A stretch of DNA of 64,000 nt from Bradyrhizobium guangdongense (GTDB taxonomy: Bacteria > Pseudomonadota > Alphaproteobacteria > Rhizobiales > Xanthobacteraceae). The position numbers and the translations under genes are program-made. Of the stretch, positions 14,578 to 37,884 are shown one piece after another. Each line of letters begins with the position of its first letter. Position 1 is the stretch's first letter. Under the pieces are notes generated by a model. That model saw only the letters and a program-made list of their open reading frames with translations. It ran no database searches and was not told the DNA's origin. Location: the NCBI RefSeq assembly GCF_004114975.1, contig NZ_CP030051.1, positions 2,480,001 to 2,544,000 of the forward strand. Reading direction: 5' to 3'.

Positions 14578-15441
14578 TCAATCGGCTTGCAAATTTGACC
14601 CCTCATCGGCGTCCAATTTTGACCCCTTTGTGCGGCGGGGTTTGCTGGTAGCGCTCGTCTCGTCGGAGCTGGCCGGGATAGCGGAGGCGAGACGAGCGCG
14701 GGTGGCGTGATCGTCGTCTCTGCTTTTGAACCGCCAGCTATCGTTGCCGGTCTCGACGATGTCGCAGTGATGGGTCAACCGATCGAGCAGCGCGGTGGTC
14801 ATCTTGGCGTCGCCGAAGACGCTCGGCCATTCGCCGAAGGCGAGATTGGTGGTTACGATGACGGAGGCGCGTTCGTAGAGGCGGCTGACGAGGTGGAAGA
14901 GAAGCTGGCCGCCAGACTGGGCGAAGGGCAAATAGCCGAGTTCATCCAGCACGATGAAGTCCATCCGGGTCAGATGCTCGGCGAGCCGTCCTTGCCGTCC
15001 GTTGCGGGTCTCGGTCTCGAGGCGATTGACGAGGTCGACGACGTTGAAGAAGCGGCCGCGGGCGCCGGATCGGATGCAGCTTCTGGCGATGGCAATAGCC
15101 AGGTGGGTTTTGCCTGTGCCGGTGCCGCCGACCAGCACGACGTTGCGTTGTTGGGCGATGAAGCCGCCGCCAGCGAGATCATTGACGAGAGTTTGATTGA
15201 TCGGCGTGCCATCGAACTGGAAGTCGGCGATGTCCTTTGCAAGCGGCAGCTTGGCAATGGTGAGCTGGTATTTGATCGAGCGGGCCTGCTTCTCGTTGAT
15301 CTCGGCGTTGAGCAGGTCGCCGACAATGCGCTGGGGTTCGTGCTGTCGCTTGACGGCAGTTGCCATGATCTCGTCGAAGGCAGCCTTCATGCCGTAGAGC
15401 TTGAGTTCGCCCATGAGGTCGAAGATTTGGGTTCGTTCCAT
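14578..15441 (-). CDS. istB: IS21-family helper ATPase IstB
   Basis: A 287-residue AAA+/DnaC-like ATPase that acts with IstA during IS21 transposition. It has an N-terminal helical domain, Walker A ([12 protein letters not shown], near residue 105-113) and Walker B ([12 protein letters not shown]). Its ATG at 15441 overlaps the istA stop by one base (TGATG). The C-terminal tail after RFKSRDDD runs through the subterminal repeats, and the stop codon lies inside the terminal repeat. Confidence 0.95.
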
Positions 15442-16940
15442 CAGATGGTCCTCCGGAGGTTATCGTAGCGGGCACAATCGGCGATCGGTGCATGACGGAG
15501 CGTCAGTGCGGCCGGCGTCATGATGTTGGCCGGTGGGGCGGGTTCACGTTGACGGGCCAGGATATTGAGCACGACATCGGCGGAATGGACGCCATGACCG
15601 AGCGCTTCGGCACAGGCCGCTTCCACCGCGGGCAGACCGTCAGTCAGCACCGCGTTGAGGATGTCGACCATCTGCCGATTGCCATCGTCGGTGCTGGCAA
15701 GCTTGCGCCGGATCCGCTCGATCGCGGCCGGCAGCACCCAGTCTTTGAAGGGAGCACCGTTGCGCAAGGCGCCGGGTTTGCGGGCGAGTACCGGCACATA
15801 ATGCCAGGGATCGTAGACGGTATCGCCGCGGCCAAAGGATCGCGGGTGCTCGGCAACGATGCGTCCATCCTGACGGATCACGATGCGATCGGCATAGGCT
15901 TGAACTTCGACCGGTCGTCCGACTGCGCTGGCTGCGACCGAGTACTTGTTGTTGTCGAAGCGCACCAGGCAAGTCTTCGAGACCGATGCCGTCACCGCGT
16001 GGAAGCCGTCGAAGCGGCCGGCATAGGGAACAAGCTTGGGGCGTTCGGCTTCGAACACGTCCCAGATTGTCTGATCGACCAGCTCTGGATGGCGATGAGC
16101 CTTGGCGTAGGCGATGCATTTGTCCAGCAGCCAGGCGTTTAACTCGTCGAGGTTTTTGAACCGCAGCCGCGGCGTGAAGAAGCGTTCCCTGACCAGCCCG
16201 ACCTGGTTCTCGACCTGCCCCTTCTCCCAGCCCGACGCTGGCGTGCAGGCGACCGGATCGACCAGATAGTGGCTGCACATCTGCAGGAAGCGGCGATTGT
16301 AGAGACGCCCTTTACCGACGAAGATCGTCTCTACAGCGGTCTTCATGTTGTCGTAGATGCCGCGGGTGCAGGTGCCTTTGAACAGGGCGAACGCCCGGTC
16401 GTGGGCGTCAAACACCATCTCCTGCGTCTCCCGCGGATAGGCCCGCACGAACAGCATGCGACTGTGACAGAGCCGAACATGGGCGGCCTTCACCATCACC
16501 GTGGTGCCGCTCAGCAGGACGACCTCGTGGCTCCAGTCGAACTGATAGGCTTCGCCTGGGGCAAAACTCAGCGGGACATAAGCGGCTGCGGTCGATTGCC
16601 CGCGTTCCTTGCTCCAGCGCCTGGCGTAACGCCGCACCGCATCGTAACCGCCGTCGTAGCCGCGGCCGCGCAGCTCCTCGAAGATCCGGATCAACGTCAG
16701 CTGTTCACGAGCCGATTTAGCCGCGTTCGCCGCCAGCAAACCTTCAAGCTCTACTGCCCATCGTCCCAGCTTTGGTCGCGGCTGCACCTGCCGCTCGTAC
16801 TCGAAGGAGGTCTCTCCCGACCTCAGCACCTTCCGAACCGTGTTCCGCGAGACCTTCAGATCGCGGGCGATCTCCTTGATCGTCTTGCCCTTGATGAAGT
16901 GCTCGCGCCGAATCCGCGCAATCGTCTCCACGATCAGCAT
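15441..16940 (-). CDS. istA: IS21-family transposase IstA
   Basis: A 499-residue transposase with an N-terminal helix-turn-helix ([20 protein letters not shown]) and a DDE integrase core: first Asp in [10 protein letters not shown], second in [10 protein letters not shown], Glu in [13 protein letters not shown]-terminal beta-rich Mu-type domain follows. The full length and all catalytic residues are present, so it appears functional. It is transcribed with istB. Confidence 0.95.
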
Positions 16941-36606: not shown

Positions 36607-36782
36607 GGATCACAGCAAGGACTGGATCGTCCCCGTTAGTCCGACCCTTAGACGGATCGTAAGTCTTAGCAACTGTGGTTCCTTACAGTTGTTCAGAACC
36701 TCATGGCGGCCGTGCTTCATCACCGCAGCTAGCACGACTTTGGCAGATCTTTGATGTTGCCGCGCTTTATAGGATTTCCGAA

Positions 36783-37019
36783 TCAATTGTTCAATGATTC
36801 GCGGCCGTCCTGCACGGGCTCGATGCCGGCGATCTCGACGAGCTTGCGGGCGGCGGTGGCAGGATCAGCGAGGGCGCGGGCAGCGGCGAATTTCATGTGG
36901 GCATCGATACGTTGGTCGCGAACCGCACCCTGAAAAGCCACCATGTAGATCAGCGCGCAGCCAATCAGGATGATCCACATAATCGACGCCACCAACAGCC
37001 AGTTGTGCGGATGTTTCAT
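36783..37019 (-). CDS. Small membrane-anchored protein, possibly truncated
   Basis: A 78-residue protein with one N-terminal TM helix (WLLVASIMWIILIGCALIYM) and a cytoplasmic tail containing ADPATAARKLVE and GIEPVQDGR. The same tail motif occurs in the broken gene at 47217, where it continues for about 50 more residues. Here the protein stops five residues later (ESLNN), so it is probably a shortened paralogue. Confidence 0.55.
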   Translation of the reverse strand: MKHPHNWLLVASIMWIILIGCALIYMVAFQGAVRDQRIDAHMKFAAARALADPATAARKLVEIAGIEPVQDGRESLNN

Positions 37020-37155
37020 GATGATCACGAAGGAGAAGGTTGGCCTCACTGGATCAAAGGATTGTAATTCTCCGGAAAATTACGGACCAGGCACCAATTG
37101 CAAGAAAACCGGCGAATCACCTACATCGCCGATGGGCTGGAAGCGGAGACTAAAG

Positions 37156-37254
37156 ATGAGAGTCGCTTCCTTGGAGAACCTTCTGACCTTGGCCACGCTG
37201 GTGTCGGCCGTTGTCGTCGTGCTGTGGGGGATCAGGATCTATCAGGGCGGGTGA
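37156..37254 (+). CDS. 32-residue single-helix membrane peptide
   Basis: MRVASLENLLTLATLVSAVV followed by VVLWGIRIYQGG. An in-frame ATG at 37132 would add MGWKRRLK. It may be a small membrane protein; support is only the clean hydrophobic helix and stop. Confidence 0.35.
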   Translation: MRVASLENLLTLATLVSAVVVVLWGIRIYQGG

Positions 37255-37410
37255 ACTGCCAACCGGCCAAAATCCCCCTATGATCCCCGCGCTCGGCATC
37301 GACCGTGAAGCAGCTCTGTGCGCCTCATCACAGTTTTGGGTCGAATAGGCAGAGATAATACCGTCCATCGGTTGGGTCGTCACCGGACCCGAGCACGATG
37401 GAGGGATCAC

Positions 37411-37632
37411 ATGTCGAAGCACTGCGAACTGGACCTGACCTCGCTGGAACGGGTCAGTGGAGGTATGCGCAACTTGGCTAATTCACCCGCTTACCACGGC
37501 ATCAGGATCAGCAAAGAGCCTGGCACTGTGGGACAGGGCGATACCATCGACGGCATCCCGTGGGGCGGCGGCGAGGGCTCTTGGGGGACCTTCAATGGTA
37601 ACCTGCCAGGGGCTGGCAATTGGGGAAACTAA
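37411..37632 (+). CDS. Bacteriocin-like precursor peptide with double-glycine leader
   Basis: A 73-residue peptide preceded by GGAGGG at 37400-37405, five bases from ATG. Residues 1-18, MSKHCELDLTSLERVSGG, match the double-glycine leader consensus (hydrophobics at -12, -7 and -4, then GG) cut by C39-peptidase ABC exporters. The predicted core of 55 residues starts MRNLANSPAYHGIRISKEPG and is Gly-rich with three Trp and repeated GxGxW or GNWG ends. It has no Cys, so it is not a disulfide or lanthionine peptide. No exporter or immunity gene is adjacent. The family call is by leader pattern. Confidence 0.65.
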   Translation: MSKHCELDLTSLERVSGGMRNLANSPAYHGIRISKEPGTVGQGDTIDGIPWGGGEGSWGTFNGNLPGAGNWGN

Positions 37633-37713
37633 GACCCGCTGCATGGCCGTAACTGCGAATCTGATAGCCTCCGCCTGCGACGGAATCCGGGGAGGCTGGA
37701 CAGTTGCACCCAA

Positions 37714-37752
37714 GGCCGTGCGGCATAAATCCCGCACGGCCTCGGCTATTTT
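37714..37752 (+). terminator. Strong intrinsic terminator after the double-glycine peptide gene
   Basis: GGCCGTGCGG at 37714-37723 pairs perfectly with CCGCACGGCC at 37732-37741, with an eight-base loop, followed by TCGGCTATTTT. It ends a single-gene transcript about 80 bp past the stop. Confidence 0.8.
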
Positions 37753-37884
37753 CCGGGTTCGGGCCGCGCGACCTCCCGAGCCGCATGCAAGGCCGCCTCG
37801 CGCGTCAACACCTCGGCCCGTAGACGGCGGCTATCTGACACTTTTGGAGCCCGCCAGACCGACAAGACCTGCGCGCTCGATCCA

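Follow-up and report, generated by a model that had tools for sequence, protein, structure and literature searches.

A double-glycine peptide of Bradyrhizobium guangdongense, probably served by a distant NHLP-type exporter

Main finding

The gene P0001, which lies in the 64,000-nucleotide stretch of Bradyrhizobium guangdongense DNA that we analysed as a whole and call the window, probably encodes a peptide that is cleaved by a C39 peptidase and acts outside the cell, as a signal or a surface/biofilm factor rather than as a pore-forming bacteriocin. In the mechanism that we propose, the gene would yield a 73-residue precursor, an NHLP-type exporter, whose genes lie on the same contig at a distance of 3.2 Mb, would recognise the 18-residue leader with its C39 domain and cut after Gly-Gly, and the 55-residue core would be released unmodified outside the cell, where its conserved C-terminal module (...VGQGDTIDGIPWGG...NGNLPGAGNWGN) may serve as an extracellular peptide, signal or surface/biofilm factor. 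We computed the leader anatomy, the catalytic residues of the exporter, the co-location of gene and exporter in relatives, the conservation of the core and the occurrence of the module behind a Sec-type signal. From these we infer that the peptide is cleaved, secreted and left unmodified; the conservation and composition of the core suggest that it acts outside the cell. The features concerned, in window coordinates, are:

37281..37828, + strand: module of ~550 bp, 88% identical to B. zhengyangense (G264), where its chromosomal context is different
37400..37405, + strand: Shine-Dalgarno-like GGAGGG, read in the sequence, with the ATG 5 nt further on
37411..37632, + strand: precursor gene P0001, 73 aa, from ORF reading and homologues
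37411..37464, + strand: leader, residues 1-18, closing with Gly17-Gly18 (37459-37464), from alignment and leader statistics
37465..37629, + strand: core, residues 19-73, with the conserved module at about residues 38-73, from alignments
37713..37742, + strand: terminator-like hairpin (11 pairs) with CGGCTATTTT behind it; recurs elsewhere in the genus

Results

A precursor gene with a double-glycine leader

P0001 consists of the leader MSKHCELDLTSLERVSGG and, after the cut point, the core MRNLANSPAYHGIRISKEPGTVGQGDTIDGIPWGGGEGSWGTFNGNLPGAGNWGN. A sequence-only reading of this DNA had described a 73-residue ORF with a strong ribosome-binding site, an 18-residue leader ending in GG with the hydrophobic spacing of C39 substrates, and a Gly/Trp-rich core lacking Cys. 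All of this was borne out: GGAGGG stands 5 nt ahead of the ATG, the leader has L-12, L-7, V-4, G-2 and G-1, and the core has 14 Gly and 3 Trp among its 55 residues, with Cys absent. When a regular expression for such leaders was run in six frames over the 64-kb window, the P0001 ORF was the sole match, and the same expression gave 0 matches in 60 simulated first-order Markov windows. With hydrophobic residues at -4, -7 and -12 ahead of GG, and a C39 exporter with Cys, His and Asp in the genome, P0001 has the marks of a C39-processed double-glycine peptide.

Matches to described families were scarce. P0001 had no match up to E 10 in Pfam and NCBIfam, including the precursor families TIGR03793 and TIGR03798 (the P0001 leader is 18 aa long); PADLOC, run on 3 proteins, gave nothing up to E 0.1; and no relatives were found among plasmids and phages (tblastn) and viral contigs. 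A search of PDB sequences with the 49-row profile described below returned a single match at E 0.17, which we took as chance. None of the neighbouring ORFs listed was recognised as an immunity gene, most of them being without annotation and immunity proteins being often unrecognisable. Elsewhere in the window, two adjoining ORFs at 14578-16940 (- strand) resemble what we take to be an IS21-type IstA/IstB pair.

The conserved part of the precursor is its C-terminal end

A first search found 14 homologues at E <= 2.7e-9, and a second, with a 20-row alignment as query, yielded 140 proteins at E <= 0.01; the 120 listed among these were read. Setting aside 9 with a Sec-type signal and P0035, P0046 and P0087, whose start is the core Met, left 108 leader-bearing proteins (P0001 included). 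Their cleavage-site residues are GG in 97, GA in 9 and neither in two (P0052, P0053), and in the leaders long enough to read, L-7 is found in 96/105 and L-12 in 99/105. Loss of the GG site among homologues had been named as a result that would speak against the double-glycine reading, which survives this check, GG or GA being kept in 106/108. The accompanying expectation of a conserved leader and a variable core was reversed: in a 49-row alignment of long-core proteins chosen from the 108, mean pairwise identity is 0.51 in the leader, 0.43 in residues 19-37 and 0.80 in residues 38-73. The conserved part of the precursor is the C-terminal ~36 residues. The dN/dS of the P0001 core against three relatives is 0.05-0.12, at dS values that are high or saturated. 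Compared with one another, the relatives give 0.20-0.32, a looser constraint than that on P0001.

The bacteriocin signature TIGR01847 (bacteriocin_sig) is matched above cut-off by a distant family member, P0066 (17.2 vs 15.7 bits). In the genome of P0001, it has four matches up to E 10, the P0001 gene not among them, and at two of the four (3.85 and 7.43 Mb) the regular expression found no GG peptide; the P0001 homologues in G230 and G039 do match, at E 5.5 and 6.7. The titles and opening parts of abstracts of the open-access papers listed on double-glycine or NHLP bacteriocins and on GG-motif or C39 peptides in rhizobia, a set that does not extend to the 2004 screen by Dirix et al. cited in such papers, hold no description of the family. 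A related GG peptide, NRSQVNDPWYRGPK...GDTLDNTLTFDQLP, is present in B. erythrophlei G039 (L023-L026, L051, L107) at four dispersed places, inside a repeated unit of 1.1-1.4 kb whose copies are 92.6-98.5% identical.

A complete NHLP-type exporter on the same contig

The sequence-only reading had called the gene an orphan with no exporter in the window, and had proposed a search of the genome for a C39 ABC transporter with an HlyD-type partner. The genome has two PF03412 matches, neither of them inside the window, so this part of the claim holds. The search found the pair of proteins 3.2 Mb off: C1:5740468-5742579 is a C39 exporter (PF03412, 131.6 bits) on the same contig as P0001, and it belongs to a complete NHLP-type set of C39 peptidase/permease/ATPase, second ABC protein and HlyD, with scores of 1028 bits for TIGR03796, 845 for TIGR03797 and 313 for TIGR03794. 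The exporter aligns over its length to 4ry2, a solved 'ABC-type bacteriocin transporter' that we take to be PCAT1, and has ECGAAC, NHF and NDP opposite DCGAAC, AHF and ADP; the Cys, His and Asp so matched are presumably the catalytic triad. Because this complete set stands on the same contig, P0001 is not an unserviced orphan, even though gene and exporter are unlinked in its genome.

The exporter has its own adjoining GG peptide (L003:4251-4487), and there is another unlinked one at C1:3,894,897 (L106:5745-6101, - strand; ...VGG|NWLGDAFRAIGNAIVHAVEWVGGVIAGGLRGPG...), relatives of which flank the exporter of G264. Counting these two and P0001, one exporter would have three or more candidate clients, and two of these lie far from it. 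By look, the peptide at ~3.895 Mb resembles a classical amphipathic bacteriocin more.

A protein of ~175 aa was seen in 7/7 Bradyrhizobium exporter loci examined (L003:11015-11542, + strand, and L047, L048, L049, L052, L053 and L054). It lies upstream of the NHLP-type HlyD, on the opposite strand in all five loci that were drawn with both genes, and has a probable signal peptide as judged by eye. Three copies had no match in Pfam at E 0.001. It is a conserved partner, possibly an immunity or outer-membrane factor.

The family and the exporter co-occur in the genus

A 15-row profile detected the P0001 family in 7/265 genomes of the genus, strongly in G000, G039, G063, G230 and G264 and weakly in G108 (3.2e-4) and G160 (8.7e-4), with no additional strong copy beyond those named. 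TIGR03794 is above cut-off in 70/265 genomes, and all seven family-positive genomes are among them (hypergeometric P 7e-5 for the seven and 1.2e-3 for the five strong ones, a statistic that ignores phylogeny). TIGR03796 is above cut-off in 7/7 positive genomes and in 2/7 other genomes compared (9/14). The family gene lies a few kb from the exporter in four of the seven (G039, G063, G230, G108) and away from it in G264, G160 and G000, the genome of P0001 itself. The order in G039 and G230 is HlyD, C39 ABC, second ABC, a 181-aa cNMP-binding protein (an assignment tested against Pfam in G039), the P0001 homologue and one or two more GG peptides, all on the same strand, and an export locus can hold up to three GG peptides. 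This co-occurrence and clustering with TIGR03794/03796/03797 places P0001 among NHLP-type export substrates in the wide sense. We rejected a modified RiPP since none of the 13 proteins that we tested from exporter loci is a modification enzyme.

A ~550-bp module shared with B. zhengyangense

The P0001 gene is carried on the ~550-bp module. In G264 this module has, at a distance of ~0.45 kb, genes with the look of cysN/cysD, and those genes are at 2.68 Mb in the genome of P0001. The module was not seen in further genomes of the genus among the matches listed (about two places scored per genome); pieces of its flanks in the window match many of them, and no convincing flanking repeats were found to explain its move. 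The core differs from that of B. zhengyangense at 3/164 aligned bases (98.2% identity), and the leader and flanks at 56/379 (83-86% identity; Fisher 8e-7 against the core). In the copy of B. zhengyangense, the closest relative, a single-base frameshift lies near the 3' end; it reflects either genuine decay or an error in sequencing.

The hairpin lies 80 nt downstream of the gene. It had been read as a dedicated terminator, and the hairpin is indeed present, but 'dedicated' is doubtful: its segment (window 37670-37752), with flank, recurs in four other Bradyrhizobium genomes (81-92% identity over 68-74 nt), and further genomes of the genus hold shorter pieces of it. At the two places inspected, no GG-peptide gene was seen beside the recurring segment, and one loose match to the regular expression there looks like a membrane-protein ORF. 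Upstream, window positions 36729-36800 and 37095-37261 have matches of ~73-92% in dozens of Bradyrhizobium genomes, and 36729-36800 has the look of a dispersed repeat.

The same module occurs behind a Sec-type signal

The C-terminal module, preceded by a CPGGC-like motif, was found in 22 proteins, 9/120 from the second search and 13 from a reverse search, and 21/22 also bear a hydrophobic signal ending in ...SPALAG or similar (signal peptides were judged by eye on the alignment, without a predictor). The exception, P0132, lacks such a signal, and its DTID is not intact either. In P0122 and P0126 the C-terminal end is incomplete, P0133 has a disturbed look, and P0134, from the reverse search, has the signal and lacks the module. 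Started from the Sec-type profile and scored on the 7990 candidates sharing most words, the reverse search recovered GG-type proteins down to 9e-12 and P0001 at 6.2e-5. The Sec-type proteins are known here from contigs alone: searches of 265 genomes of the genus and 391 of the family turned up no full Sec-type gene, and the matches, in 6/265 and 5/391 genomes, are all GG-type cores or weak partial ones, the latter in three genomes, two of which carry internal stops.

The sequence-only reading would have been weakened by homologues forming part of a larger non-secreted protein. The Sec-type homologues, of 83-169 aa, do not indicate such a protein because nearly all have signal-like N-termini. 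Sorted with a loose regular expression by the insert between GDTID and NLP, 126/134 proteins could be classed, 8 being without DT[ILV]D. The IPWGG-long insert is found in 46 GG-type and 13 Sec-type proteins and the MEVN-like insert in 17 and 1, respectively; the LTFDQ-type insert (32) is GG-type only, W-[EQ]-x-[IV] (7) is Sec-type only, and the other inserts (10) are GG-type. We rejected an RTX-like repeat, which we take GDTID to resemble, since there is a single GDTID. These data suggest one secreted module with two export routes, C39 and Sec-type, and the peptide probably acts outside the cell because the same ending occurs behind a different export tag.

Discussion

Weighing the alternatives

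A chance ORF might also be short and isolated, yet the 14 homologues of the first search exclude this for practical purposes, and the 140 proteins of the second, the purifying selection on the core and the lack of matches in 60 simulations go against it too. A real gene could still be a relic, copied away from its exporter on the ~550-bp module and since disused. Its isolated position, the sporadic distribution of the family (7/265) and the frameshift in the B. zhengyangense copy would fit such a history, which we nevertheless consider improbable: the copy in the window keeps its frame, ribosome-binding site and GG site, the exporter is still in the genome, and the core is 98.2% identical to that of the relative when the flanks are at ~85%, and therefore it was probably under selection during a large part of the period after the two diverged. 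The earlier choice between remote service and relic is thus narrowed, with remote service supported and the relic disfavoured by the conserved core. Remote service could in principle come from nearer by, since a C39-like type I transporter lies at 2.685 Mb, ~167 kb off, and its orthologue in B. zhengyangense (G264) is ~5.6 kb from the peptide gene. This is very improbable, and we rejected it as the exporter, because Ala, Lys and Ser replace the catalytic Cys, His and Asp (read on the G264 orthologue, 88% identical in DNA); moreover, it adjoins an HlyD-like ORF and a large repetitive region, and those homologues that neighbour an exporter do so at the NHLP type instead. Besides the type I transporter, the loci concerned (L004:5305-16400, at 2.68 Mb in the genome of P0001, and L050:5066-14000) hold a long region of internal repeats and two proteins that by look are HlyD-like and PEP-CTERM-like.

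As for the role of the core, it could be a class II-like bacteriocin or microcin without modification, which the remote NHLP-type transporter would cut and export and which would be active on other rhizobia. The GG leader with a C39 exporter and the grouping of as many as three GG peptides at one export locus speak for this; sources label some family members 'bacteriocin' or 'bacteriocin-like' (e.g. P0014, P0066), the label of P0066 fitting its TIGR01847 match, and the part of PMC3546714 that we draw on describes class IIa members that likewise use GG and Sec leaders, so that an exchange of leaders is by itself no argument against a bacteriocin. We nonetheless regard this as rather unlikely. 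The core is acidic (pI 5.46) and hydrophilic (GRAVY -0.64), its low-confidence structural model (mean pLDDT 56) has no fold and no helix of four residues or more and predicts disorder, its C-terminal part is conserved rather than diversifying, and no immunity gene was recognised beside the gene among the neighbouring ORFs listed, which are partly annotated. The sequence-only reading had left the choice between a class II-like microcin and a signalling peptide; the first is possible but disfavoured by such an acidic, hydrophilic and unstructured core, and a signal or surface role is preferred. A C39-cleaved extracellular peptide of this kind is the reading that we retain, a conserved C-terminal core with an exchangeable leader pointing to a conserved extracellular role rather than to warfare. 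A more ambitious version, which we put forward only tentatively, is that of Bradyrhizobium-centred extracellular peptides in which a 'GDTID ... N-x-LPG' module has been swapped between C39 (GG leader) and Sec (signal and CPGGC) export, with a variable insert between constant ends. If true, constant ends around an exchangeable insert would be in keeping with a private-signal (pherotype-like) system, with one exporter and many dispersed genes.

The peptide is a concrete candidate client for the NHLP-type exporters of 70/265 Bradyrhizobium genomes, and the exporter loci looked at have GG peptides without a recognised modification enzyme. Its roles might include cell-cell signalling, biofilm formation or plant contact. 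Mining by gene neighbourhood would miss such precursors because they can lie megabases from their likely exporter.

Comparison with known systems

The class II bacteriocins share with P0001 the type of GG leader, and class IIa offers the precedent for two export routes. Against the description in the part of PMC3546714 used here, P0001 has no YGNGV motif and lacks the cationic and/or amphipathic core of the class, and its C-terminal module is conserved. The TIGR01847 domain divides the family, P0066 passing its cut-off and P0001 itself having no NCBIfam match. The three-gene exporter TIGR03794/03796/03797 was described together with NHLP/N11P precursors, according to the portion of PMC2887384 consulted, and the exporter of the P0001 genome is of exactly that type; the P0001 leader, in contrast, is short and classical, neither nitrile-hydratase-like nor Nif11-like, the core is without Cys, and the exporter-locus proteins tested include no modification enzyme. 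Another comparison is with EbfG1-4 and PteB of Synechococcus elongatus, where, in the sections of PMC4997328 on which we rely, GG peptides serve biofilm formation through a C39 transporter. Like P0001 and its relatives, EbfG1-4 are small proteins with GG/GA leaders, several per locus; the C39 transporter is needed for their efficient secretion, and their role is in biofilms and not antibiotic. The two systems differ in that mature EbfG is described in those sections as without homology to proteins of other cyanobacteria, whereas the P0001 core is conserved across its family, which is known here from sequence, and its module is also found behind a Sec-type signal.
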